Virus record (IMG/VR): IMGVR_UViG_3300031857_001431
Coordinates: 1-23,510 of that record
Direction: 5' to 3' (one strand)
Source of the DNA: a virus
Length of the DNA: 23,510 nucleotides
Part shown: positions 3 to 23,401 of the stretch, piece by piece
How positions within the stretch are numbered: position 1 is the stretch's first letter
How the letters are laid out: every line of letters starts with the position of its first letter
Notes under the pieces: generated by a model
The model's input: the letters and a program-made list of their open reading frames with translations, nothing else
What the model was told of the DNA's origin: nothing
Database searches by the model: none
Translations under genes and position numbers: made by a program

Positions 3-3000
3 ACCGACGACTGGGAATTTGTTGATTTTACCGCTGTATCATCATCCGCATTAAATTATACAAAGGGTATAACAAATTCAGGAATTGAAAACGGAACCAT
101 CACTTTTGAAGTTCCGTTAAATGCTCCAGATGTATTATACTATCAAAGTTTTACAGATCCTAATAGATTTGGTAGAATTATTATTACTAATATAGAAGAA
201 AACACTAAAATTGATGTAGAAAATGAAATTTTAGGTAAAGCAACCTATACCAGTAGCAACAACGTAGCTTTTAGTAATGGCATGATTGTTTATTTTATTG
301 GAAAAGTTTTTCCAGAAAAATATAGTAGTAATACGTCTAACAACAAATGGGTAGTTGAGGGTGTAGGAGAAAAAATATCTTTAACTAATGTTGCCGACCT
401 AATTGTGTCTACTACCTTCTCAGACACTGCCCCTGAGATATTATTTGATAATGGCGGTTTTGATACACAGCCATTTGACGATGCTAGCGCATATCCTGGA
501 AAGAAAGATTACATTACTATTAATCGTTCTAGCCTAGATTCAAACCCTTGGAGCCGATACAATCGTTGGTATCATCGAGCAGTTTTAGATTATGCCCATA
601 CTCTAAATAATTCTAATTTTGATGCTCCGGAAACAACTCGAGCAAAACGTCCAATTATTGAATTCAAACCTAATTTGCAGTTGTTTAATCATGGCTCAAT
701 TGCCAAAGCTGCTGTTGACTATGTTGATGATTTTACAACTGATGTATTTTCAGTTATTGAAGGCAGTACAGGTTATATTGTTGACGGTGAATATCTATTC
801 AATGGTGCAAGACTGTTAATAACCAACGATACCGACACGCTAGCTAACAATCAAATTTACATTGTAAATTTTATTACTCACAATAATGTTAAACAAATTA
901 GCCTAACTCGCGAATCTAATGTTGATACTCAGGCCGGAGACGGAGTATTAATACGTCGAGGTATAAAGAATAAAGGAGTAATGTATCATTTTAACGGAAT
1001 TGATTGGGTTCAGAGTCAATTAAAAACTGCAACAAATCAAGAACCGCTATTTGATATGTTTGATGATAACGAAGTTAGTTTTGGAGATGCTGAAACGTAT
1101 CCGGTTAGCTCGTTCGTAGGAACTCCTATTCTAAGTTATAAAATTGGTTCAGGACCAACGGATATTGAATTAGGATTTAGCATTAGCTATCTCAATATAG
1201 ATAATGTGGGTGATATACAATTTAATTTTAATATTGATGCAGATTCATTTAACTATAAACTTGACAACATTAATTACTCTAAAGAAATTTCAACAGGATA
1301 TTTGAAATTTAATAATGATGAAAGTTTTATTAATGCATGGAACACACTAGATTCTAATTATGTCCAACCAATAATTGACAGCGTAGATATTACAGAATCT
1401 ACAAACGAAATTACCACAACTATGGTTGATTGGAATTTGTTGGACGATAAGGACATCCGTAAAATACTAGTTTATCTTAACGGAGTACATGTTCGATCGG
1501 GTTTTACTAGAACCGCAGGTACATTTGTATTTGACAAACAATTTACAGTAGGTGATACGGTAGCAATTAAACTGTTTGCTGACATTGATCCCAACACAGG
1601 CTATTACGAAATTCCTTTGGGATTAGAAAAAAATCCCCTAAACGAAAAAATAAAAACATTTACTTTAGGACAGGCATCTGATCATTTAGCCACAGGATTA
1701 GAACTATTAGAAGACTTTACCGGAATATTTCCAGGATTGAATAATCTAAGAGATATTAGCGGTTATCAAACGTTAACAAGAAGATTTTTAAAACACTCAA
1801 GTCCATCTCCATTATCTATTGCACTATTATGTAATAAAGAAAATAATATTATAAAATCTATTCAGTATGCAAAAAAATCATACACTGATTTTAAAAATAA
1901 TTTTATTACTCTAGCATATGAAATATATTACGATCAAACTGCAAATGATTTTGTAGACTCTATTCTAGAAGAGATTAGTAGAACTCAAGATATCAACAGA
2001 CCCTTTGCTGGATCTGACATGATAGGTAGTGGTGCCCATACTACTATAAATTATACTGTTGAAGATACAGGAATTAAAACATTTGCTCTTTCAGAAAAAT
2101 TTGATCTAAAAAGCCTAAGCTCACGGGCAGTTTACGTTTACTTTAATAATCAGCAATTATTAGTAAATCGAGATTATGAATTTAATTCTACATTTGGATT
2201 TGTTAATTTAATGATTAATTTAACAGAAGGAGACGTAATTCAAATTAGAGAATATACTTCAACGGCTATTAATTTTATACCACCGACTCCAACTAAGTTG
2301 GGATTATATAAAAAATATACTCCCAGAAAATTTGTTGACGATACGTATGTGGACCCAAAAGAAGTAATTCAAGGACACGACGGAAGCATAACAATTGCCT
2401 ACGGCGATTTTAGAGATGACGTTTTATTAGAATTAGAAACTCGAATTTACAACAATATCAAACAAGAATATAACGAGTCTATAATCAACATCGATAATAT
2501 TCTAGGCGGATATTATGGAAATGCACTCTATGGAAAACCAGCATTAGATAAAATTATTTCTTCAGAATTTTTAAATTGGATTTCTGGAACAAATATTGAT
2601 TATGTAAACAATTTATATTTCGACAGTGAAAATAGTTTTACATATACCTATAGTAATATGGTAGATCCAACAGGCACTCAAAACTTGCCAGGATACTGGA
2701 AAGGTGTTTATAGTTGGTTTTACGATACATACAGGCCACACACAAATCCTTGGGAAATGTTAGGCTTTAGTGAAAAACCATTATGGTGGGAAACTGAATA
2801 CGGTCCTGCCCCGTATACAAGCAATAACCTAATTCTTTGGGAAGATCTTAGAGACGGTATTATTCGTCAAGGAGAAAGAGCAGGTACTAGAGATAGATAC
2901 AAGCGTCCATCGATCATGAGTCACATTCCTGTAGATGGCGATGGCAAATTGTTAAGTCCGTTAGATTCGGGATTGGCCGGTAATTTTTCTTTGATCAATA

Positions 3001-6000
3001 ATCAAGGAGCATTCAAAATAGGGGACGATGCGCCAGTTGAAGCAGCCTGGAGAACAAGTTCAGAGTGGCCGTTTGCAATAATTTCTGCTCTTGCCCTATT
3101 AAAACCTTTTGAATTTATTACTGATAATTTTAATAAATCATTTATATCAACTAACAAGCTAGGTCAGACAATAAATTTAAAAACTAATTTATTTTCTACT
3201 TTTAATGATTTTGTCTATGAGAATACAACAGACACTCCGGTTTCAGGATTAGTAGTTTATATTACAAACTATTTAAAAAGTACCGCTGCGTCAACAGCTA
3301 CCTTAGAAGATATTGTTGGAAACATAAATGTAAAATTATCTAACAGAATTTCTGGTTTTGTTGATCAGCAACAACAAAAATATATTTTAGATAGTAAAAA
3401 TCCTAGATCTACATCTAATAGTGTTTTTATTCCGCCAGAAAATTATGACATTATTTTTAACGTTAGTTCGCCAATTTTCAATTTATCCTATAGCGGAGTT
3501 ATTTTAGAAAAAGTTAATACCGGATGGAAAATTTCAGGATACGACAATTCGACTCCGTTGTTTTACTATTACCAGCCAACTGATTCTCAATCTGATCCTT
3601 TAATTTCGGTTGGCGGTCTAAGTGAAAATTTCTTAGATTGGACTGAAAACACATTCTACGGCAACGGTGTAATTTGCAGATTTAAAGATAAATTCTATAG
3701 ATGTCTTAGTAGCCATACGAGCTCAACTGAATTTTTAGAAAGCACAAACGGTTTAAATATTTGGAAACAACTACCGTCGTTGCCGTTAAATGGTGCAGTA
3801 GAAGCATTTAGAAGAAGAAATTTTAATAAATTAAAACTTAAAACTCTGTCATATGGTACTATATTAACCAGTATACAACAGGTAGTTGATTTCTTGTTAG
3901 GCTATCAAGAATATCTTAAATCTGTTGGATTTATATTTGACGGATATGATAGAAATTCTTCAACATCATTTGATTGGTATACTTCTGCTAAAGAATTTAT
4001 GTTCTGGTCTAAGCACAATTGGGCTGAAAATTCTTTACTTACACTTAGCCCTTCAGCAACTTACATAAAAATTAAATTTAATATCGGTGTAGTTGATAAC
4101 ATTTTAGACAGTTTCTATGATTACCAAGTTTTGAAAAATGACGGAAATCCTCTACAGCCTAGATTTATTAATGTTAATAGAGACTTTCAAGAAATCGTAG
4201 TATCTACTACAAATACTACAGACGGAATATATTTTTTAAGAATGCACTTCGTACTTAAAGAGCATGTAGTAGTATTTGATGATCGAACAGTGTTTAACGA
4301 CATACTCTATGACAAGCCAACTGGTTATCGTCAGGAACGAATTAAGAGTCGTGGATTCCGCACAGTTGACTGGGACGGTGATTACACCAGTCCTGGATTC
4401 TTGTTTGACAATGTTAATATTGATGTTTGGCAACCATTTACAGATTATAAATTAGGCGATATTGTTGCATATAAATCTTATAATTGGACCAGCAAAAAAA
4501 CTCAGTTGGGTTCTGCAGAATTTCAAGATGCGTTTTGGTCAAAATTAGATTCTACTCCTAGTAAATCGTTGGTGCCTAACTTTGATTATAAAATAAATCA
4601 GTTTAGCGACTATTACGAAGTGAACACCGACGGCGTTGGGTCTAGTCAACGAGATCTTGCAAGGCACGCAATTGGTTATCAGCAACGAGAATATTTGCAA
4701 AATATTGCAGAAGATGAAATTAGTCAGTTTAGAATATATCAAGGATTTATTAGAGAAAAAGGAACTGCAAATGCTATCGTTAAGGTATTTGACAAACTTA
4801 GCAGAACACAAGACGACAGCGTTGTATTAAAAGAAGAATGGGCATTTAAAATTGGAGAATTTGGAGGAACAAATCAGATAGATGATTTTGAATTTGAAAT
4901 TAAAAAAGATAATCTTGTAATAAATCCTCAACCGATACTATTAACTTACAGCACAAATTCATCTGTTGTTCTAGATCAATATTTAAGAATTAATTCTTCA
5001 AATTTTACAATCGCACCTACCCCGTTTACTACAGATTTAAATCGCACATCGTACTATGACGGAGTCACTAGATCTGCAGGATACGTGAATACAAATCATG
5101 TTGATTTTGTTGTAAGAACAATAGACGATATTGTAAATTTAAACATTGCAGATGTTTATGAAAATGCTCATATATGGATAACGTTTTATAATAATTCTTG
5201 GACAGTATTTCGATATAATCAAGAAGTTGCACTACGAGTAGAGTCTTTAATAAAGATAGATTCTAATGTAGAATTAACACTAAGTCGACTACACAATTTT
5301 AAAGTCGGCGATATTGTTGGTTTAAAATACATTGCTAATCTTACAGGCTTTTTTAAAATTACTGCAATTACAAATAAAACAATTACAGTAATTACTACTA
5401 GCACCAACGAACCTGAGATTGAAGATAGTACATCGGCAACTATTGGAATTTTTACAGTTGCAAGAAAAACAAATTATCAAGAGTTAGATCCGCAACAGGC
5501 CTCATTGTTATCTCTTTCAGCAAGGATTTGGGTAGATGCAAATGAATCCGATAAATGGGAAGTTATTGAAAAAACCAAACAGTATACTACCTACGAATTA
5601 AGTGAATACGGAATCACAACCCCTGTGGGCACTGGCACATCGGTAGTCTATATTGATAACCTAAAACAAATTGCCACAGGCATTCCGGGATCGGGTTATG
5701 TAATGATTTATACAACCAAGGCTTCTGGTGAAGTTATTGGCCTAAAACAAATTGTGCCACCGCCCGATGGATTTGAAACTGCGGTTGGAACATCGTTTGG
5801 AAAAGTATTAGCAGTTAGTCCGGATTACAAGTGGTTAGCTGTAGGATCTCCAAATGCCAGCGGAGTAAAGAGTGCATATCAAGGCGAATTGTATCAATAT
5901 AGAAGTTATCTTGCAGGCGAGATTGTGCTATATCAAGGAAAACTTTGGGAAGCCATTGATAACATTGATCTAGGTGACGGTAGTTCTATTAACTTTAACA

Positions 6001-9000
6001 GCGACGATTGGAAGCCAGCAACTATAGTTAACGCTAATCCTGCTGCCCGAGGCGACGGATTCACCGACCAGGGAATGATATCCTTGTACAAATACAGTCA
6101 AGGACAGTGGGAAATTGCCTACAGTTTTGTTAGTCCAAGACAAGCGGCCTACGAAGAATTTGGTTCAGCAATTACTATTGGTGTTTCTGGAACAACATAT
6201 TATATGGCAGTATCTGCTCTAGGGTCATTATGTGATCCTGCAGTAGGACCAAATACTGGTAAAGGAAGAATTTACCTTTATCAATACAACGGCACAGAGT
6301 GGAGACATTTAGAAAATACAAAGTACCTAGGAGTGTATCAACCATCACCCTTGGCATTTTATCCTGCTGGATCAATAGTATGGTCTAATGATAGTTTATG
6401 GGAAGCATTATACGACAACACCGGCGACGGCAGTTCGTTATCCTTAGAGTCAAGTGATTGGAAAAAATTAGATCCTATTTCTACGCAATGTTCGTTGCCA
6501 ACAAATATTGCAATGGATGATGACGGTTCTACCCTAGCAGAAGGATTACTAAGTTCAACGCAGTTAGCCGAATTAGTTAAAGAAGGCGATCAGTTTGGTT
6601 TTTCTCTTACTATGAGTAGAGACGGACGTTTATTAGTTGTTGGCGCACCAAATAGTGACGGTCAATATTTTGCCAATTACCGAGGCGACTGGAATGTTTA
6701 TCAAGAATATAAAGAAGGTGATGTTGTAAAATATCAAAACGGCTATCATAGATTAACCGACGCAACAACATCATCTATTACAAGTCTTGGACAATTTCCA
6801 GATGATGGATTACCTTGGTTAAATGTAGGAGATAGTGCATCTCCTTCTACGGGTAAAATTTACATCTACGAAAGAAATTCAAATGATTTGTACAGTCTAA
6901 CACAGACAATTACCGCTGATTCTTTAAGCGATATAAACGATACTACGAATTCTGGGATTATTGGATCGGGGGACCAATTTGGATTTGCCATCGATATTGA
7001 TGCATCGGGCACAACTATTGTAACAAGTAGTCCCTTAGCAGACATTAACAAACAGAATCAAGGAGCAGCATATGTTTTCAAACGGGATGCTACTCAATTT
7101 AGGCTAAAACAAAAATTACAAAGCTACGAATATTTTACAAACGAGTATTTTGGTTCTAGTGTTTCTATCAGTGCTGCAACTGAACGAATTGTAATTGGAG
7201 CAAAAAATGCCGGATATGCTGTTGATGCATATTTTACCGATGGTACAACATTTGATAGAAGAAGAACCTCGTTCTCTTCTTCTAGAGGATTTCCTGGACA
7301 AGTCTATGTGTATGAGAGAAAAGATCAGGGATATTTCTTAGTTGAAAAATTAGAGGCTGAGTTAGTTTCTGGAGAGTCGTTTGGCTATTCTATCGATTGT
7401 ACCAGTTCTGTAATTGTTGTAGGATCTCCTACCTATCAAGTAGAAGGTGTAGCAGTTGGTATGGTTAGACTGTTTAAAAAATCACCCGAAACAAATAGTT
7501 TCAATGTAATTTCTCAAGAAACACCTTTAGTAGATGTTGACTTGTTGCAAAATATTGAATTATATGATAATGTCAATAATAAAAAAATCACAGACCTTGA
7601 TGTTGTTGACGGTTTTAAACTTAAAATATTAGGAGTTGCTGAACAAGAAATTTCCTATAAAACAATTTACGATCCTGCAATATACATGTTGGGTACTGAC
7701 GACCAAGTAGTTGATGAATCACAACCGTGGTTTGAAAAAAATGTTGGAAAAATTTGGTGGGATTTAAGTACAGTTAAATTTATAAATTATGAGCAGGATG
7801 ATTTTTCCTATAGAATAGGAAACTGGAATTCTCAAGTAGAAGGCTCTTCAATTGATATCTACGAATGGGTAGAATCTGTACTATTGCCATCGGAGTGGAG
7901 TTTGCTTGCCGATACTGTAGAAGGATTAGTTGAAGGTATTTCCGGCCAACCAAAATTTGCTGACGATACAGTTTACAATACTAAGATTTTGTACAATCCA
8001 AACACAGGATTAACTACTGGAACATTGTATTACTATTGGGTTTCTTCAAAGACACTGCTCCCTGCTAATAATCCAAATAGACGAATTTCAGCATCAGCAA
8101 TTGAAGATTTTATTAATAACCCAATTGGGTCTGGAATTCCGTTTGTAGGGATATTAGGAACAGACAAATTTTTAGCCTATAATTTCCCAGCAGTTATTGG
8201 AACAGATACAGCACTGATAAATGTTGAATATACTAAAAATAAAAAACAATTAACACCAATTCATAGAGAGTATCAATTATTAACTAGCGGAGTTGCCGAC
8301 AGTCTGCCTTCTGAATACTTAGAAAAGAAATGGATTGACAGTTTAGTAGGATCAGACGAAGCTGGAAATGCAGTTCCTGATCCTAAATTGCCAGTTAAGA
8401 AACAACAAGGACTAAGTTTTAGGCCTCGACAAAGCATGTTTGTTAATAGAGATAAGGCATTAAAGATTGCAATTGACAATATTAATTCTGTACTAATAAC
8501 TAGACCTTTTGCTGACACGATTGATTTTAGTAATCTTAACAAATTTGATCCTATTCCTAGTGAAGTATTAAATCAATATGATTTAGCAGTGGATACCTAT
8601 ATTGATTTGGAACAAGTAGGAACAGTAAAAATTCGTCAGGCAGAATTTACCGCAAATATTATTAATGGTGAAATTGATACCATTGATATTTCAGATGCAG
8701 GGTTTGGATACCGAACAGCTCCTTATATTGAAATTCAAGGCGACGGAATTGGAGCAAAAGCATTCATTACTTTAAACGCACAAGGTAAAGTAAATTCTAT
8801 TACATTAACGTCTAAAGGAAAAAAATATACAACAGCTATCGTAAAAATTAGACCGTTCTCTGTGTTGGTGCGAAACGATTCTACATTAAACGGATTTTGG
8901 AGTATATATGCTTGGGATCAACAACGTAAGATTTTTTATCGTAGTAAATCTCAAGGATACGATACTACCATTTATTGGGAATTTATCGATTGGTGGAAAT

Positions 9001-12000
9001 TAGGATATTCTATAAATTCTAGAATTATTAAAGAAATTACTAATATATACCAAGAACCAACTCTAGATCTTTCTGTGGGTGATCTAATCAGAGTTAAAGA
9101 ATATGGCAATGGCGGATGGGTAATATTAGAAAAGACAATAGAAGGTGACGGAAATCTGCTTGGAAATTATAATTTAGTTGGTCGTCAAAATGGCACAATA
9201 CGGATTACCGATACTCTTTATAATCGGTTGATTAACAGCCTTGGTTATGACAATGTCGGTTCTTATGATGCAGCATTGTATGATTTACAACCAACTAAAG
9301 AATTACGAATTATTTTACAAGCAGCAAAAGAAAATATATTTGTTGATGACCTAAGAGTTGAATGGAACAATTTATTCTTCTCTTCGGTAAAATATGCGTT
9401 CTCTGAACAGACTTATATTGATTGGGCATTCAAGACAAGTTTCTTAAATGCAATTCATAATGTGGGCGATCTCGAACAGAAGACCAACTATAAAAACGAT
9501 AATTTAGAAAGTTTTCAACAATACATAGAAGAAGTAAAACCCTATAGAACCAGCATTAGAGAATACACTAGTCGATATACTAAAACTGAGTCTTCTAATT
9601 CAGCGGTATCTGATTTTGATCTACCACCTGCATATTCTGTTAGAGACGGTAAAATATTACCAGTAAATCAATATTATAATAGATTCAGTGAATATCCATG
9701 GAAGTCGTGGTTTGACAACAATGGATATTCTATAGTAGCAATTGAAGTTGCTAACGCAGGCGCTGACTATCGCACTCCGCCAACAGTATTAATTACAGGT
9801 AATGGTACTGGTGCTACGGCCCAAGCATTTATATCTAATGGTCGAGTGTCTGGAATTAGAGTTATTACTAATGGTAGTGGTTATACACAAACTCCAACAG
9901 TATCATTAGTAGGCGGCAACGGAACATCAATTAATATTGCTAGAGCTGTAGCAGTTCTTGGCGACACACCTGTTAGATCCTTTGATCTAACAATGAAGTT
10001 TGATAGAACAAATAAAATTGGTACTTATAATGATTTTGAATATTCACAAACTTTTATTGCTACGGGATATAGTTCAATATTTGATCTAAATTATGCTCCA
10101 ACTAGAGATAAAGGAAAAATTACAGTAGTTAAAAACAATCAGTTAGTAATTACCAATGAATATGAAATTAGTCTATATACTTCAACAATAGATACGTATG
10201 AATTATTAAAGGGTAAATTGAAATTTTTTACAAATCCAAATGCAGGGGACGTAATTGTAATTAACTATGAAAAAAATACTGAATTGTTTAATAGCATAGA
10301 TAGAATACGTAAATTTTATCAACCAACAGCCGGCATGAAAGGTAATGATCTTGGTCAATTAATGACCGGAGTTGACTTTGGCGGTGTACAGGTGCAAGGT
10401 ACAACTTTTGATGTTACTGGCGGGTGGGATGCTCTGCCATGGTTCACAGACAGTTGGGATAGTGTAGAATCTAGTAATGATTTTTATTATGTAGCAGATG
10501 GTAGCACAACATTTGTTGTCTTACCTTATACACCAGAAAACAACCAACCTATTTCGATCTATATTAAACGAGTTGGAGATCAACGTCCGATTAGAATTGA
10601 TGATCCTAATTATACTCCTAGCTGGGATTCTAGTGTAGCAACTAATCCCAACGCCGAAATGCCAACATTCGTTGGAGATGGATCTACAAATATAATTGAA
10701 GTCCATCGATATTTAAGTACCAATTCTGGAGATACACTAATCTTTAGAAAATTAGAAAGTGACGGTTCTGTTGTTATTAGTGATGTAAATTTATTAGATA
10801 CAAGAATTAGCGGCGGATCGTTATCGAACATTAATGGCGCATATGTAACTGCCGCTGGATTAACTCCAGAAGAAATAGTTATAGACGGAGAAAAATTTAT
10901 CAGTCCAGATCAAGTGCCGGCACCCGAAGAGAATATTCCAGGCCAAGTACTTGATAGTTTAAGTATCAAGGTATTTAATAAAACCAATCCGGGTGCAGCC
11001 CCAATACAAAATAATGTTATTATTGGAGATGGTGTCAGAACTAGATTTACAATAGGATTATCCATCTTTGAAGCAACGTCGGTAATGGTATATGTTAATA
11101 AAGTTAAACAAGAATATATTGGTGATAGTACTATAAATTACACCATAGATTTTGTTGAAAATGAAATTGAATTTAATCTAGCACCAGCGTTGGGAGATGT
11201 TATTGAAATTATTGCTGTGGGTATAGGCGGTATAGGATTACTAGATTATCAAGAATTTGTAGCAGACGGTGAAACTAACTTATTTTTAACCAAAGCTGCA
11301 TACGATCAAACATCAATAGTTTTAGTGACTGTAGACGGAGTAGCTATAGACGTTGGTTTTGTCAACAGTTCAGATTTTATTGATACTAAAAATAAAACAA
11401 TGATACAGTTCGGATTAACTCCTGCATTTAGACAAGTTGTAAAAATTATCTGTTTTGGTGCAGTCGAAGGTGCAGATTCGTTTAACTCTTCCTTTATTCG
11501 AATTAATCAACAAACAGTTCCGTATGATGGAAGTACTAGGACCATAGCATTAGATAATTTTGTTAATTTAGAACAATCGTCGGCAGCTGCCTCAATTATA
11601 GTCAACGTTAATGGTACATATCTTCAAGGAGTTGATACTACCTATATTGAATATGACGGTACTAATAACAATATATCAGTGGGTGTTGATCCTGCAGAAA
11701 CAATTGGAACTATTACTTCTGGAAATGTCAAAGTATACATTAATAATGTTCAACAACAATTTGTTATTGACTTTACCTATAACGGAAACAACAATTTAAT
11801 TAATATCCCTTCTTCAAATTTAGAATTAGGCGATATAATCAGAGTTGAAACTAACGTTAGATCAAAATATTCAATTGTTGATGGAAATATTATATTAGAT
11901 AATAGTGTTGATCTAGAGGTTAACGATGATATTCAAATAACATGGTTTAGCCAATATTCTACAATGAATATTATTTCAGACGAATACCAAGGCGGTAAAT

Positions 12001-12962
12001 TGCAATACAAACTGCCAAGGGATCCTCTAGATGTTAATTATGTTTGGGTATATAAGAATGGAATTCGTTTAACTAAAGATGCAGATTATAGACTATCGCG
12101 GTCTTCTATTGTTTATCTAACTGAAGAGTCGTTATCTACAGACACTATTAAAATTGTACAATTTAGTAACGTAATTTATTCAAGTAATAGGGCATTTGAA
12201 ATATTTAAGGATATGTTAAACAACTATCATTATAAGAGATATTCTAGAGATGTTGAAGTTAAATTAGTTAAAGATCTAAATTATTTTGATACATCTATAG
12301 AAGTTTCAAACGCTGATAAATTATCAACTCCAATCTTTAGTAGACGAATTCCTGGAGTTGTTATTATTAATAATGAAAGAATTGAATATTTTGAAAAGAA
12401 TGGAAATATTCTATCTCAATTAAGACGTGGAAGTTTAGGTACAGGAATTGCCGAATTACATCTAACAGGTAGTTTTGTAGTCGATGTTGGTGCAACCGAA
12501 ACTCTTCCTTATACCGAAAATCAAGAGAAAGCCAACTTTATCAGCGACGGTAGCACAATATTGATTGGACCACTAGATTATACTCCTCGCCAATCTACAA
12601 GAAATAATTGGTACAGAGAATCGATACCATCTAATTTTGGTCCTTGCGACGAAATAGAAGTATTTGCGGGCGGTAAGCGCCTACGTAAAAATCCTATAGA
12701 TGCCTATCAAGAAGATAACGGCGCTAGCAGCCCTGGTGCTGATATTATGCAAGAAGCTGAATTTTCAGTTAACGGAACAACTGCATATATTCGATTAACT
12801 GACTCAGTACCTGCAGGAACTCGAATAACAATCATTAGAAAATTAGGAAAAATTTGGTATGAGAAAAGTGAATTTGCAGCCAGTAAAGGCATTACGTTGT
12901 TGTCTAACAACACACCTATTGCTAGTTTCATTGCTGTAAAGACCACTGAGCTGCCCGAATAA
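3..12962 (+). CDS. Giant virion structural protein, 5'-truncated (at least 4,319 aa)
   Basis: The frame is open from the window edge (codons start at base 3) to the TAA at 12960-12962. The first internal ATG, at 282, has no Shine-Dalgarno sequence and coding continues upstream of it, so the true start lies outside the window. Residue number from the edge is base/3. Modules in order: a region typical of giant structural proteins of marine T4-like phages (bases about 700-1300); an aromatic, Pro-rich block (about 2690-3000; NPWEMLGF, KPLWWETEYGPAPYT); CBM5/12-like modules (about 3640-3785 and 4425-4545); a conserved YQGFIREKGT block (about 4738); an FG-GAP-type propeller with CBM-like inserts (5796-7488); two Gly/Tyr-rich repeats (about 8640-8860 and 9735-9960); an EEVKPYRTSIREY block (about 9520); DGST-type repeats (about 10050-12600); and a PGVVIINNERIEYF block (about 12350). 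It is inferred to be a tail or baseplate-periphery component that contacts host glycans. Family placement is from recalled sequence patterns; the exact location in the virion is unknown. Confidence 0.9.
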   Translation, partial: TDDWEFVDFTAVSSSALNYTKGITNSGIENGTITFEVPLNAPDVLYYQSFTDPNRFGRIIITNIEENTKIDVENEILGKATYTSSNNVAFSNGMIVYFIGKVFPEKYSSNTSNNKWVVEGVGEKISLTNVADLIVSTTFSDTAPEILFDNGGFDTQPFDDASAYPGKKDYITINRSSLDSNPWSRYNRWYHRAVLDYAHTLNNSNFDAPETTRAKRPIIEFKPNLQLFNHGSIAKAAVDYVDDFTTDVFSVIEGSTGYIVDGEYLFNGARLLITNDTDTLANNQIYIVNFITHNNVKQISLTRESNVDTQAGDGVLIRRGIKNKGVMYHFNGIDWVQSQLKTATNQEPLFDMFDDNEVSFGDAETYPVSSFVGTPILSYKIGSGPTDIELGFSISYLNIDNVGDIQFNFNIDADSFNYKLDNINYSKEISTGYLKFNNDESFINAWNTLDSNYVQPIIDSVDITESTNEITTTMVDWNLLDDKDIRKILVYLNGVHVRSGFTRTAGTFVFDKQFTVGDTVAIKLFADIDPNTGYYEIPLGLEKNPLNEKIKTFTLGQASDHLATGLELLEDFTGIFPGLNNLRDISGYQTLTRRFLKHSSPSPLSIALLCNKENNIIKSIQYAKKSYTDFKNNFITLAYEIYYDQTANDFVDSILEEISRTQDINRPFAGSDMIGSGAHTTINYTVEDTGIKTFALSEKFDLKSLSSRAVYVYFNNQQLLVNRDYEFNSTFGFVNLMINLTEGDVIQIREYTSTAINFIPPTPTKLGLYKKYTPRKFVDDTYVDPKEVIQGHDGSITIAYGDFRDDVLLELETRIYNNIKQEYNESIINIDNILGGYYGNALYGKPALDKIISSEFLNWISGTNIDYVNNLYFDSENSFTYTYSNMVDPTGTQNLPGYWKGVYSWFYDTYRPHTNPWEMLGFSEKPLWWETEYGPAPYTSNNLILWEDLRDGIIRQGERAGTRDRYKRPSIMSHIPVDGDGKLLSPLDSGLAGNFSLINNQGAFKIGDDAPVEAAWRTSSEWPFAIISALALLKPFEFITDNFNKSFISTNKLGQTINLKTNLFSTFNDFVYENTTDTPVSGLVVYITNYLKSTAASTATLEDIVGNINVKLSNRISGFVDQQQQKYILDSKNPRSTSNSVFIPPENYDIIFNVSSPIFNLSYSGVILEKVNTGWKISGYDNSTPLFYYYQPTDSQSDPLISVGGLSENFLDWTENTFYGNGVICRFKDKFYRCLSSHTSSTEFLESTNGLNIWKQLPSLPLNGAVEAFRRRNFNKLKLKTLSYGTILTSIQQVVDFLLGYQEYLKSVGFIFDGYDRNSSTSFDWYTSAKEFMFWSKHNWAENSLLTLSPSATYIKIKFNIGVVDNILDSFYDYQVLKNDGNPLQPRFINVNRDFQEIVVSTTNTTDGIYFLRMHFVLKEHVVVFDDRTVFNDILYDKPTGYRQERIKSRGFRTVDWDGDYTSPGFLFDNVNIDVWQPFTDYKLGDIVAYKSYNWTSKKTQLGSAEFQDAFWSKLDSTPSKSLVPNFDYKINQFSDYYEVNTDGVGSSQRDLARHAIGYQQREYLQNIAEDEISQFRIYQGFIREKGTANAIVKVFDKLSRTQDDSVVLKEEWAFKIGEFGGTNQIDDFEFEIKKDNLVINPQPILLTYSTNSSVVLDQYLRINSSNFTIAPTPFTTDLNRTSYYDGVTRSAGYVNTNHVDFVVRTIDDIVNLNIADVYENAHIWITFYNNSWTVFRYNQEVALRVESLIKIDSNVELTLSRLHNFKVGDIVGLKYIANLTGFFKITAITNKTITVITTSTNEPEIEDSTSATIGIFTVARKTNYQELDPQQASLLSLSARIWVDANESDKWEVIEKTKQYTTYELSEYGITTPVGTGTSVVYIDNLKQIATGIPGSGYVMIYTTKASGEVIGLKQIVPPPDGFETAVGTSFGKVLAVSPDYKWLAVGSPNASGVKSAYQGELYQYRSYLAGEIVLYQGKLWEAIDNIDLGDGSSINFNSDDWKPATIVNANPAARGDGFTDQGMISLYKYSQGQWEIAYSFVSPRQAAYEEFGSAITIGVSGTTYYMAVSALGSLCDPAVGPNTGKGRIYLYQYNGTEWRHLENTKYLGVYQPSPLAFYPAGSIVWSNDSLWEALYDNTGDGSSLSLESSDWKKLDPISTQCSLPTNIAMDDDGSTLAEGLLSSTQLAELVKEGDQFGFSLTMSRDGRLLVVGAPNSDGQYFANYRGDWNVYQEYKEGDVVKYQNGYHRLTDATTSSITSLGQFPDDGLPWLNVGDSASPSTGKIYIYERNSNDLYSLTQTITADSLSDINDTTNSGIIGSGDQFGFAIDIDASGTTIVTSSPLADINKQNQGAAYVFKRDATQFRLKQKLQSYEYFTNEYFGSSVSISAATERIVIGAKNAGYAVDAYFTDGTTFDRRRTSFSSSRGFPGQVYVYERKDQGYFLVEKLEAELVSGESFGYSIDCTSSVIVVGSPTYQVEGVAVGMVRLFKKSPETNSFNVISQETPLVDVDLLQNIELYDNVNNKKITDLDVVDGFKLKILGVAEQEISYKTIYDPAIYMLGTDDQVVDESQPWFEKNVGKIWWDLSTVKFINYEQDDFSYRIGNWNSQVEGSSIDIYEWVESVLLPSEWSLLADTVEGLVEGISGQPKFADDTVYNTKILYNPNTGLTTGTLYYYWVSSKTLLPANNPNRRISASAIEDFINNPIGSGIPFVGILGTDKFLAYNFPAVIGTDTALINVEYTKNKKQLTPIHREYQLLTSGVADSLPSEYLEKKWIDSLVGSDEAGNAVPDPKLPVKKQQGLSFRPRQSMFVNRDKALKIAIDNINSVLITRPFADTIDFSNLNKFDPIPSEVLNQYDLAVDTYIDLEQVGTVKIRQAEFTANIINGEIDTIDISDAGFGYRTAPYIEIQGDGIGAKAFITLNAQGKVNSITLTSKGKKYTTAIVKIRPFSVLVRNDSTLNGFWSIYAWDQQRKIFYRSKSQGYDTTIYWEFIDWWKLGYSINSRIIKEITNIYQEPTLDLSVGDLIRVKEYGNGGWVILEKTIEGDGNLLGNYNLVGRQNGTIRITDTLYNRLINSLGYDNVGSYDAALYDLQPTKELRIILQAAKENIFVDDLRVEWNNLFFSSVKYAFSEQTYIDWAFKTSFLNAIHNVGDLEQKTNYKNDNLESFQQYIEEVKPYRTSIREYTSRYTKTESSNSAVSDFDLPPAYSVRDGKILPVNQYYNRFSEYPWKSWFDNNGYSIVAIEVANAGADYRTPPTVLITGNGTGATAQAFISNGRVSGIRVITNGSGYTQTPTVSLVGGNGTSINIARAVAVLGDTPVRSFDLTMKFDRTNKIGTYNDFEYSQTFIATGYSSIFDLNYAPTRDKGKITVVKNNQLVITNEYEISLYTSTIDTYELLKGKLKFFTNPNAGDVIVINYEKNTELFNSIDRIRKFYQPTAGMKGNDLGQLMTGVDFGGVQVQGTTFDVTGGWDALPWFTDSWDSVESSNDFYYVADGSTTFVVLPYTPENNQPISIYIKRVGDQRPIRIDDPNYTPSWDSSVATNPNAEMPTFVGDGSTNIIEVHRYLSTNSGDTLIFRKLESDGSVVISDVNLLDTRISGGSLSNINGAYVTAAGLTPEEIVIDGEKFISPDQVPAPEENIPGQVLDSLSIKVFNKTNPGAAPIQNNVIIGDGVRTRFTIGLSIFEATSVMVYVNKVKQEYIGDSTINYTIDFVENEIEFNLAPALGDVIEIIAVGIGGIGLLDYQEFVADGETNLFLTKAAYDQTSIVLVTVDGVAIDVGFVNSSDFIDTKNKTMIQFGLTPAFRQVVKIICFGAVEGADSFNSSFIRINQQTVPYDGSTRTIALDNFVNLEQSSAAASIIVNVNGTYLQGVDTTYIEYDGTNNNISVGVDPAETIGTITSGNVKVYINNVQQQFVIDFTYNGNNNLINIPSSNLELGDIIRVETNVRSKYSIVDGNIILDNSVDLEVNDDIQITWFSQYSTMNIISDEYQGGKLQYKLPRDPLDVNYVWVYKNGIRLTKDADYRLSRSSIVYLTEESLSTDTIKIVQFSNVIYSSNRAFEIFKDMLNNYHYKRYSRDVEVKLVKDLNYFDTSIEVSNADKLSTPIFSRRIPGVVIINNERIEYFEKNGNILSQLRRGSLGTGIAELHLTGSFVVDVGATETLPYTENQEKANFISDGSTILIGPLDYTPRQSTRNNWYRESIPSNFGPCDEIEVFAGGKRLRKNPIDAYQEDNGASSPGADIMQEAEFSVNGTTAYIRLTDSVPAGTRITIIRKLGKIWYEKSEFAASKGITLLSNNTPIASFIAVKTTELPE
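5796..7488 (+). repeat. FG-GAP-type beta-propeller region inside the giant protein
   Basis: Six units begin with FG plus a hydrophobic strand, at bases 5796 (FGKVLAVSP), 6159 (FGSAITIG), 6594 (FGFSLTMS), 6978 (FGFAIDID), 7149 (FGSSVSIS) and 7380 (FGYSIDCT). Most then carry a VGAPN/VGSPN-like segment and close with a G-x-x-Y-x-Y strand (GRIYLYQY, GKIYIYER, GAAYVFKR, GQVYVYER). This is the pattern of FG-GAP repeats, which fold as integrin-alpha-like beta-propeller blades. The number of blades (six seen, possibly a degenerate seventh before 5796) is inferred. Confidence 0.75.
5877..6830 (+). repeat. Three CBM5/12-like modules within and between propeller blades
   Basis: Three segments, at about 5877-6030, 6327-6480 and 6684-6830, match the CBM5/12 (chitin-binding-like) pattern Y-x-x-G-x-x-V-x-Y-x-G-x-x-Y/W-x-A ... 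W. Examples are AGEIVLYQGKLWEAI with a later DDWKPA, and AGSIVWSNDSLWEAL with a later SDWKKL. The first two share a GDGSS ... S-x-DWK segment, suggesting recent duplication. Copy 1 sits within the first blade, copy 2 between the second and third blades, and copy 3 within the third. Related modules occur earlier at about 3640-3785 and 4425-4545. Ligand specificity cannot be told from the sequence. Confidence 0.6.
10491..12620 (+). repeat. C-terminal DGST-type repeats of the giant protein
   Basis: Repeated units of about 60-100 residues start with a (F/Y)-x-x-DG-(S/E/V)-T motif. A V-x-V-Y-V-N-G/K-V-like strand follows, then often a GD-x-I-x-I strand. Unit starts are recognisable at bases 10491 (YVADGSTT), 10668 (FVGDGSTN), about 11019 (IIGDGVRT), 11256 (FVADGETN), 11517 (VPYDGSTR) and 12537 (FISDGSTI). 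More divergent copies lie at about 2040-2260, 10050 and 11976. Such beta-rich repeats are common in phage fibre and tail proteins, where they probably form stacked small beta-domains. The structural reading is inference. Confidence 0.6.
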
Positions 12963-17567: not shown

Positions 17568-17593
17568 TAGTTAAATATGTAGGGGAGCGATAA

Positions 17594-19427: not shown

Positions 19428-19435
19428 GATAAATA
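19428..19435 (+). promoter_or_regulatory. Candidate late promoter core (GATAAATA) before fibre paralogue 4
   Basis: GATAAATA lies in the 43-base gap before the gene at 19458 and matches the T4 late core at 7 of 8 positions. RNA would start near 19441, just upstream of the Shine-Dalgarno sequence GGAG (19447-19450) and 17 bases before the ATG. The spacing matches that of the perfect promoter at 22161, which supports it. No experimental evidence is available from the sequence. Confidence 0.5.
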
Positions 19436-21224: not shown

Positions 21225-22136
21225 ATGGCAATCGGTGATTTCATTTCCGCAACAGATTACAACTCAATCAGAACTAAAATTATTAACGTCATGAGTACAG
21301 GATCCGGTAATTTTGGTTATGGTCAAACAACTTTTAGTTCTTTAGTATCTGCTGGAAATACTGTAACAAAAACACAATGGGATTCTCTTAGATACGATAT
21401 CTACAATGCTATTCTACACCAAACTGGATCAGCAGCTTCGTTGGTGCAAGTGGCAGTGGGTGATGTTATTAGATTTGGTGCAAGCAATCCTAATTCTCAA
21501 TATGACACTGTTGCTAATACCGCAGTTACCAATCGATTCAATTTAGGAACTGGCCAGTTTGTAACAGAAGCAATTAACAGCACATCATTTACTTCATCGT
21601 GGTATCAATCAGTTAGTGCTACAGCATCGGTTACATTTTCCACAGCAGAACAAGCAAGATTTTTCTTTAATGCAGGCGGAAAGATTCGATTTGCTAGCAC
21701 CAGAACCGGCGGCAACGGTGAAGCACAAAATACTTCGTGGAGTAATTTATTAAGTTCTGCAGGAGCTCAATCATTTGTAGGCGGCCCCTCTGGAATTAAT
21801 TTCTTTTCTTTAACTAGTGGTTTTCAGACTTTTGCTGAAATTTCAGGAAGCTCGGCATATTCTAATAACAAATGGCGTTTAGAAGCATCGTGTAATGTTG
21901 CAAGCAATACATTAGGAACCGCCAATGTTGTTAATTTTAGAATAACGTGGTTAGATGCATACACTGATCCAGTACCAGGAGGCGGAACACCGGCAATTCC
22001 TCCTGGAGATTTAGTTGACGGTACGCTTACTCTAACAGTTGATCAGGTTCGTCCTTCTGGATTTTTACAACCAAGTGGTACATTTACCACTGTAGGCCCA
22101 TCGTCGTCTTCTTTGAGTGCAATCTCTGGTTCATAA
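21225..22136 (+). CDS. Conserved phage structural protein, function unknown
   Basis: This 303-residue protein starts at ATG 21225. AAGGA (21214-21218) overlaps the upstream stop, so it is probably co-translated with the fibre gene. The first 70 or so residues (ISATDYNSIRTKI, GSGNFGYGQTTFSS, TVTKTQWDSLRYDIYNAILHQTG) form a conserved module I recognise from marine T4-like phages. The rest is rich in Ser, Thr, Asn, Gly and aromatics, without Cys clusters or membrane segments. It includes EQARFFFNAGGKIRFAS followed by NTSWSNLLSSAG, a pattern seen in phage virion proteins. Near residue 247 a Pro/Gly-rich linker (PVPGGGTPAIPPGD) leads to a C-terminal beta-like tail (DGTLTLTVDQVRPSGFLQPS, then GTFTTVGPSSSS). 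It is likely a tail or fibre accessory protein. I know of no demonstrated role. Confidence 0.8.
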   Translation: MAIGDFISATDYNSIRTKIINVMSTGSGNFGYGQTTFSSLVSAGNTVTKTQWDSLRYDIYNAILHQTGSAASLVQVAVGDVIRFGASNPNSQYDTVANTAVTNRFNLGTGQFVTEAINSTSFTSSWYQSVSATASVTFSTAEQARFFFNAGGKIRFASTRTGGNGEAQNTSWSNLLSSAGAQSFVGGPSGINFFSLTSGFQTFAEISGSSAYSNNKWRLEASCNVASNTLGTANVVNFRITWLDAYTDPVPGGGTPAIPPGDLVDGTLTLTVDQVRPSGFLQPSGTFTTVGPSSSSLSAISGS

Positions 22137-22142
22137 ATTTTA

Positions 22143-22190
22143 ATCCCCTATAAGACGCCATATAAATAATGTGCGTGTTTTATAGGAGAT
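22143..22190 (+). promoter_or_regulatory. RNA hairpin enclosing a late promoter and pairing the SD of the next gene
   Basis: Bases 22147-22158 pair without interruption with 22175-22186 (12 bp, including G-U pairs 22154/22179 and 22157/22176). After one C-A mismatch, 22143-22145 pair with 22188-22190. The 16-base loop (22159-22174) contains the late promoter core. The 3' arm contains GGAG (22185-22188), the Shine-Dalgarno sequence for the ATG at 22194. RNA made from the promoter would start near 22174 and lack the 5' arm, so only read-through RNA would fold. No U-tract follows, so an intrinsic terminator is unlikely. Confidence 0.7.
22161..22168 (+). promoter_or_regulatory. T4-type late promoter, perfect TATAAATA core
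   Basis: This is an exact TATAAATA in the 57-base gap before the gene at 22194. T4 late promoters carry this core at about -13 to -6, recognised by the late sigma factor gp55, so transcription would start near 22174. That gives a leader of about 20 bases with AGGAG at 22184-22188. It would drive the three-gene overlapping operon beginning at 22194. Confidence 0.8.
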
Positions 22191-22193
22191 ACC

Positions 22194-22544
22194 ATGGACG
22201 ACCGTCTAAAAGCTGCCTTAGATTTTTCAAATTATAGACAAACCCTAGCAATTCAAAGAAAAACCCTTAAAGAAAAAATTGAGGGCAAATTGACTTACGG
22301 CCACTCCGGCGGTATATTTAAGATTGATAGAACACTATTAGTTTTTGTTCAAATGCTAATTGATCAAGACAGAACAGAAAATGTTCCTCTAATTGATCAA
22401 AATGAAAATCCAATTTTAATTCCAGACCTACAAATATTTCGAGATGAAATTTTAGATAGGTATTTTACTGCCACCTACGAATATCACGAAGAATACGAAA
22501 AAATTAAATCTAGCAGGACCGTAGAAAAATTATTGAATATATGA
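22194..22544 (+). CDS. Conserved hypothetical protein of marine T4-like phages, 116 aa
   Basis: This 116-residue, charged, probably mostly helical protein starts at ATG 22194 with AGGAG (22184-22188) six bases upstream. Recognisable segments are ALDFSNYRQTLAIQRKTLKE, KLTYGHSGGIFKIDRTLLVF and EILDRYFTATYEYHEEYEKI. I have seen similar small proteins in marine T4-like phages, but I know no function for them. No catalytic motif, Cys cluster, signal peptide or membrane segment is visible. It is the first gene after a perfect late promoter and overlaps the glycosyltransferase-like gene by 4 bases (ATGA at 22541-22544), so the two are probably made together. Its Shine-Dalgarno sequence lies in the 3' arm of the hairpin at 22143-22190, so translation from read-through RNA is predicted to be blocked. 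Confidence 0.8.
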   Translation: MDDRLKAALDFSNYRQTLAIQRKTLKEKIEGKLTYGHSGGIFKIDRTLLVFVQMLIDQDRTENVPLIDQNENPILIPDLQIFRDEILDRYFTATYEYHEEYEKIKSSRTVEKLLNI

Positions 22545-23401
22545 CTAAAGGCGTATTAATTTTTGCTCATAATGGCCCAGAAGTAGATTACGGTGTAATG
22601 GGTATAATTTCTGGCGGACTAGCAAAAAAACATTTGGGATTACCAGTCAGTTTAATAACAGACAAATGGACTATTGCTTGGTTAAAAGAATCAGGGATGT
22701 ATGCTAGAGCCGAGTCTATTTTTGATAAGATTATTGAAATTGAAAAGCCTAGAACAAAAAATACAAGAAAACTGCATGATGGTTTCTACAGCCAGACAAT
22801 TCCCTTTGTAAATTCAAATAGATTTTCAGTTTGGGATTTAAGTCCTTACGATCAAACTTTGCTAATTGATAGTGATTATCTAATTTTTTCTAACAAACTA
22901 AATGAGTACTGGAACACAGATAGTAGCGTAATGTTAGGACATTCTATGAATGACATAACGGGTGACCGTAGTGGTATATTAGATCAACGTGTAAGTGAAA
23001 CTGGGATTCATATGTTTTGGGCTACCACAGTAATGTTTACTAAAAATGAAGAAAGCAGATTCTTTTTTAAATTAGTTGATTATATTAAAGACAATTACAG
23101 ATATTATGCCGACCTATTTAGATTTGATCCAAGACAATATCGAAATGATATTTCATTCAGCATTGCTAAACATATCATGAACGGGTTTGAAACAGAATTT
23201 ATTTACACTCTTCCTCCTATTCTAACGGTGTTTGACAAAGATATTTTGCATGATGTAATCGAAAATCGATTGACATTTCTAATTGAAAAACCACTCAATT
23301 GCGGAGATTTCTGGGCTGCAACTACACAAGGATCTGATGTTCATATTATGAACAAACAAAGTATTATTAGAAATAAAGAAAAATTACTGGAGTTAATATG
23401 A
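22541..23401 (+). CDS. Putative GT-A-like glycosyltransferase
   Basis: This 286-residue protein resembles nucleotide-sugar transferases of GT-A fold. A beta-strand start with a DYG-containing loop (GVLIFAHNGPEVDYGVMG, residues 4-21) leads to a PVSLITD strand (35-41). A central LLIDSDYLIF segment has a D-x-D motif at Asp110 and Asp112, the usual metal and nucleotide-sugar ligand. An ATTVMFTK strand follows (161-168), then RNDISFSIAKHIMNG (201-215), as in acceptor-site helices of GT8-like enzymes. There is no signal peptide or membrane segment, so it should act in the cytoplasm. It begins in the ATGA overlap with the preceding gene, has no clear Shine-Dalgarno sequence, and ends in an ATGA overlap with the next; translational coupling is likely. 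The substrate is unknown. Modification of late virion proteins is one possibility suggested by late expression and the structural neighbours. The fold assignment is moderate. Confidence 0.65.
   Translation: MTKGVLIFAHNGPEVDYGVMGIISGGLAKKHLGLPVSLITDKWTIAWLKESGMYARAESIFDKIIEIEKPRTKNTRKLHDGFYSQTIPFVNSNRFSVWDLSPYDQTLLIDSDYLIFSNKLNEYWNTDSSVMLGHSMNDITGDRSGILDQRVSETGIHMFWATTVMFTKNEESRFFFKLVDYIKDNYRYYADLFRFDPRQYRNDISFSIAKHIMNGFETEFIYTLPPILTVFDKDILHDVIENRLTFLIEKPLNCGDFWAATTQGSDVHIMNKQSIIRNKEKLLELI

Follow-up and report, generated by a model that had tools for sequence, protein, structure and literature searches.

The stretch between positions 22143 and 22190 raises the question of why an RNA hairpin should carry a late promoter in its tip and, in its 3' arm, the Shine-Dalgarno sequence of the next gene, and what purpose such an arrangement would serve. 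A first-pass annotation likened it to the two-level switch of phage T4 and took the downstream genes to be silent until late transcription. Our analysis upholds the anatomy but points to another purpose. We consider, with a probability of roughly 0.8, that the locus works in cis as a two-transcript switch like that of T4 gene e, most likely insulating the operon behind it from late read-through. The features concerned, numbered in the window (the whole 23,510-nt stretch of DNA that was analyzed), are these:

21225 to 22136, plus strand: upstream gene of 303 residues, an open reading frame that ends 6 nt short of the hairpin base
22143 to 22190, plus strand: RNA hairpin, recognized from its fold (z, -6.46) and from covariation in 22 leaders
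22161 to 22168, plus strand: late promoter element of the T4 type, TATAAATA, at the tip of the hairpin, recognized as the sole copy in the window, from its conservation in leaders, and from the sigma factor of relatives
22174 (give or take a base or two), plus strand: predicted late RNA start, placed from T4 late-promoter spacing and giving a 20-nt leader that lacks the 5' arm
22185 to 22188, plus strand: Shine-Dalgarno sequence GGAG in the 3' arm, recognized from what it costs to open (10.1 kcal/mol for the long RNA and 3.6 for the short)
22194 to 22544, plus strand: conserved gene for a 116-residue protein, an open reading frame found at 190 loci
22541 to 23401, plus strand: gene for a 286-residue protein with a predicted GT-A glycosyltransferase fold, which shares its first 4 nt with the end of the 116-residue gene

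The hairpin and the promoter within it are real and far beyond chance. Three outer pairs (22143-22145 with 22188-22190) are separated by a mismatch at 22146/22187 from a stem of 12 contiguous pairs, G-U pairs among them (22147-22158 with 22175-22186); both helices had been described on first pass. Five further pairs, overlooked at that stage, join 22159-22163 to 22169-22173 across a bulged C22174, and the loop is therefore just AAATA (22164-22168). Hence, although TATAAATA occupies 22161-22168 as originally stated, it is not wholly in the loop; its first three bases are paired and AAATA alone is looped. Similarly, the GGAG that was said to lie in the paired arm does so for three of its four bases, A22187 being unpaired. 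The folding energy of the sense RNA is -25.5 kcal/mol, compared with a shuffled mean of -9.9 (standard deviation, 2.4; none of 200 shuffles equaled it), in a ViennaRNA calculation that leaves out ribosomes, proteins, and cotranscriptional folding and whose temperature may differ from that of the host. No Rfam family matched at the gathering score anywhere in the 23.5-kb window. Between the upstream stop codon and the hairpin is a T-rich stretch (22137-22142), often TAATTTTT, and most lineages have one.

A strong stem placed right after a gene might be the intrinsic transcription terminator of the upstream operon. However, there is no T run after the stem on either strand, and the hairpin is missing from a terminator scan; on these grounds we rule this explanation out, its likelihood being very slight indeed.

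The promoter assignment draws on both the window and its relatives. TATAAATA occurs once in the 23.5-kb window, where 5.0 copies are expected, and TAAATA occurs 17 times against an expected 51 (threefold fewer), indicating that this type of motif is avoided elsewhere. Relatives were pooled by means of the 116-residue protein, yielding 190 viral-contig loci (some of them from the same contig repeatedly) and 88 distinct leaders; in practically all of the latter, NTAAATA stands 23 to 31 nt 5' of the start codon. A gp55-type late sigma factor (phrog_234) was sought in the long relatives, the window record itself being a 23.5-kb fragment, and was found in all six (G001 to G006; E values of 2e-26 to 5e-25); its best match among named phages is from the PA5oct-like group (Wroclawvirus), at 48% identity. 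Moreover, ATAAATA is strongly concentrated between genes: in the 353-kb relative (G002), 38 of 69 copies reach into noncoding sequence, which makes up roughly 5% of the total. In possessing intergenic TATAAATA-type elements together with a gp55-family protein, the relatives resemble T4, whose late transcription uses the gp55 sigma factor and TATAAATA; they differ in that GTAAATA and CTAAATA variants serve at the 116-residue-gene locus in some relatives. Presumably the spacing is also that of T4 late promoters, and with this spacing the predicted late start falls at 22174.

Would the two RNAs differ in how readily a ribosome can reach the GGAG? The long transcript forms the hairpin (z, -6.46) and the RNA starting at 22174 has no significant structure (z, +0.45), a comparison of folds that the first-pass annotation had suggested. 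Opening the Shine-Dalgarno sequence is predicted to cost 10.1 kcal/mol in read-through RNA versus 3.6 from the predicted late start, and over the 88 leaders the medians are 7.4 and 2.5 for the long and short RNAs, respectively. The unpaired probability of GGAG taken alone does not separate the two in the window (0.26 versus 0.29), because the short RNA makes a weak local helix; the opening energies do separate them. When identical code was applied to T4, gene e gave 10.8 (long) versus 2.9 (short) kcal/mol and gene 49 a moderate effect (6.2 versus 1.4), whereas no effect was seen at soc (0.0 versus 0.7). The predicted gain in access is not general to late promoters of this group. Among 46 late-promoter genes in four long relatives, the long and short RNAs differ by less than 3.5 kcal/mol at 36; a difference of at least 5 kcal/mol is seen at ten, which include every one of the four copies of the 116-residue gene. 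The device is thus confined to this gene and few others.

In the window's lineage and many others, a hairpin encloses the promoter and has GGAG or a similar sequence in its 3' arm; the arm sequences are wholly different among lineages (e.g., L059, L133, L142, L230, and L231). With shuffling confined to the sequence 5' of the promoter, hairpin stability has a median z of -3.6, and for 49 of the 88 leaders none of 100 shuffles was as stable. We rely on these energies since a yes/no criterion proved too loose: the count of 64 hairpins in 88 leaders was dropped once leaders shuffled in their 5' part were found to pass in 44% of cases (38 expected), and a tree-based count of 6 or 7 changes of hairpin label, which rested on the same rule, was given no weight. 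In about 24 of the 88 leaders the promoter is kept without an enclosing hairpin. These belong mainly to one marine lineage (including L155 and L162-L209), where the hairpin is absent, and to the L060 group, which has a shorter hairpin located downstream of the promoter instead.

The case made by the leaders comes from covariation and not from a single fold. In the 22 leaders that align without gaps, 85.5% of the cells of a 21-pair stem are paired, compared with 30 to 57% when slid by 1 to 3 columns and with a shuffle mean of 82.5% (none of 500 shuffles as high). Compensatory double changes affect 7 of the 21 pairs and 17 cells; the shuffled mean for cells is 8.2, and none of 500 shuffles reaches the observed value. 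Counted by pairs alone, the changes are not unusual (66 of 500 shuffles). Conservation and covariation of the two arms, for which the first-pass annotation had looked to related phages, are therefore both found, with two lineages going without the hairpin. Conservation is 93% in the 3' arm and 77% in the 5' arm. Changes in the 5' arm comprise 62 transitions and 35 transversions, compared with 9 and 62 just upstream; they are mostly transitions, and these keep pairing as G-U.

An inverted repeat with a promoter at its center could also act as DNA, either as a structured promoter or as a protein-binding palindrome. Two results led us to reject this idea, whose chances we judge to be minimal. Most of the late promoters elsewhere in these phages have no hairpin; in addition, there are 42 G-U cells to 16 A-C cells, and folding is stronger for the sense than for the antisense strand (-25.5 versus -20.6), neither of which a dyad needs. 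The G-U-keeping transitions and the better folding of the sense strand argue that the pairing acts in sense RNA.

The hairpin might also mainly serve to protect or process the tail-fibre RNA from upstream at its 3' end, as an exonuclease barrier or as a site of loop cleavage, with the hiding of the ribosome site incidental. Its position 6 nt past the upstream stop codon would suit such a role, as would the AU-rich loop, which could be an RNase E-like target whose cleavage would also free the ribosome site. Other genes in the block, however, end without a comparable hairpin, and end protection requires neither a promoter in the tip nor GGAG in the arm, a layout that recurs in many lineages with unrelated arms. 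We therefore regard this role as improbable.

Instead, we favor a switch with two transcripts. Read-through RNA would carry both arms and fold into the hairpin, hiding the Shine-Dalgarno sequence of the 116-residue gene, and the hiding would extend to the glycosyltransferase gene through the 4-nt overlap. RNA polymerase with the gp55-type factor would start from TATAAATA and make an RNA from about 22174 from which the whole 5' arm is missing, leaving the site exposed. We infer this start and its effect on translation; good translation probably comes only from RNA begun at the late promoter within the hairpin. In relatives, the distance from the upstream stop to the start of the 116-residue gene is usually 55 to 64 nt. 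The main mechanistic doubt is that, in read-through RNA that is being translated, a ribosome terminating at the upstream stop codon could open some of the 5' arm and so disturb the stem.

There is precedent in T4 for a ribosome site hidden by a hairpin and bypassed by a late promoter (PMC3014915, PMC2988022), and repression of gene e on long transcripts is about 100-fold (PMC3014915). Like gene e, the present locus has TATAAATA in the loop region of the hairpin (where the second TATAAATA of gene e likewise lies), a Shine-Dalgarno sequence in the 3' arm of a stable hairpin (conserved here), and a late RNA predicted to lack the 5' arm, as the first-pass comparison with T4 had held; the opening costs are also nearly equal (10.8 and 2.9 kcal/mol in T4 versus 10.1 and 3.6 here). 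The mechanism is very probably the same, although the genes themselves are not homologous: gene e encodes lysozyme, and the gene here is not a lysozyme. T4 also has a second late promoter in the 5' arm, unlike the single promoter here. In T4 soc, gene 49, I-TevI/II/III, and segB, and in Aeh1 mobE, the site is similarly hidden by structure in the read-through RNA, and transcription from a late promoter gets around this (PMC3014915, PMC2988022), but those genes lie within early or middle transcripts; in soc and gene 49 the promoter is at or before the 5' arm, so that the late RNA starts within that arm.

The locus also differs from gene e in its neighborhood, in that T4 has early genes upstream and here there are tail genes that look late. 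T4 genes under hairpin control share long transcripts with genes of the early and middle classes (PMC2988022). In the 353-kb relative, by contrast, a codirectional run of about 33 kb lies upstream, composed of baseplate and tail genes and reaching back to a divergent gp55-like gene. One reading frame amid the baseplate and tail genes spans at least 4,319 codons (window positions 3 to 12962; 4,576 codons in G002). Some of the upstream genes have late promoters of their own, and the following candidate is the source of probable late read-through RNA:

19429 to 19435, plus strand: candidate late promoter ATAAATA of a 585-residue tail-fibre-like gene, recognized by sequence

ATAAATA also precedes the 584-residue homologue in G002, G004, and G005 and the 581-residue one in G006, and in the window TAAATA precedes a 606-residue tail-fibre-like gene (at 17572).

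These observations bear on whether the same device might serve early/late timing, as it does for T4 lysozyme, with early or middle RNA entering the block and having to stay untranslated. The anatomy does match that of T4 genes e and I-TevI, for which timing is the shown purpose. Nevertheless, the 33 kb upstream in the 353-kb relative consists of baseplate and tail genes as far as the divergent gp55-like gene, TAAATA stands before both the 606- and the 585-residue genes (17572 and 19430), and sigma-70-like matches show no excess (39 versus 36.6 by chance). We consider timing unlikely. Because the codirectional block upstream is one of baseplate and tail genes that have late promoters themselves, the RNA to be silenced is probably itself late, and the earlier statement that the operon is silent until late transcription finds no support. 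Of the T4 two-level switch proposed on first pass, the anatomy, the covariation, the sigma factor, and the predicted gain in access are all supported, and the early-silencing purpose is unsupported. Since the upstream genes look late too, we favor insulation of the operon's translation from late read-through, that is, dosage control, as its most likely purpose.

The device itself is already known; what is new is its presence in another phage group and in an unusual gene setting. Documented mainly in T-even phages and their homing genes, it extends here to a large, uncultivated, environmental T4-like group, and its position behind late genes challenges the usual view that such hairpins merely block early translation.

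The 116-residue protein has no Pfam or PHROG family. Its AlphaFold2 model (pLDDT, 89) has two long helices with beta hairpins between them, and the best PDB matches of this model are prefoldin-like and weak (E value of about 0.6 to 1); prefoldin as the nearest shape is only a lead. No relative of the gene was found among annotated phages at the sensitivity used or in GTDB genomes, nor was one found in four named jumbo phages by a search without a positive control. The 286-residue protein has no Pfam match, but its model (AlphaFold2 pLDDT, 93) matches the solved enzymes GlyE and glycogenin in Foldseek (E value of about 5e-7; probability, 1.0; TM score of about 0.4 to 0.5), and by this fold match it is predicted to be a GT-A glycosyltransferase. 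A homologue with this fold follows the 116-residue gene at 185 of 190 loci, the other five being cut by a contig end or too short, and the 4-nt overlap occurs at 125 loci; the coupling of the two genes noted on first pass is thus borne out. In G002 (160104-170684), further codirectional genes without PHROG matches follow the glycosyltransferase-fold gene and are succeeded by an opposing cluster; this region is possibly a surface-modification island.

It is conceivable, at somewhat less than an even chance, that the gene e device recurs in late operons of these large T4-like phages, insulating the 116-residue/glycosyltransferase pair, csgF/csgG, and the tail sheath and setting dose, not timing. 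The additional copies have weaker and uneven evidence, and we treat them as leads and not as results. csgF (PF10614) followed by csgG (PF03783), both curli-pore genes, is found in the 353-kb relative (L084:305-2023) and in L260, L241, L250, and L256; in the latter four leaders, GTAAATA or CTAAATA lies inside a hairpin that holds GGGAG, and the csgF z-scores, from simple (not dinucleotide) shuffles, range from -7.1 to +1.0. A role in lysis has been suggested for phage csgGF (PMC9004378), and the csgF/csgG lead, if true, would parallel the control of T4 lysozyme. In the tail sheath leader (G002:262951-262988 [L095]; L263-L342), CTAAATA is enclosed by a long-range stem that pairs AGGAGA; the median z, again from simple shuffles, is -1.9, with strong values in L282, L287, and L294 and weak ones in others. 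Finally, a gene of 187/207 residues (G002:250465 and G005:27853) has an ATAAATA element and a predicted access difference of 5.5 to 5.9 kcal/mol.
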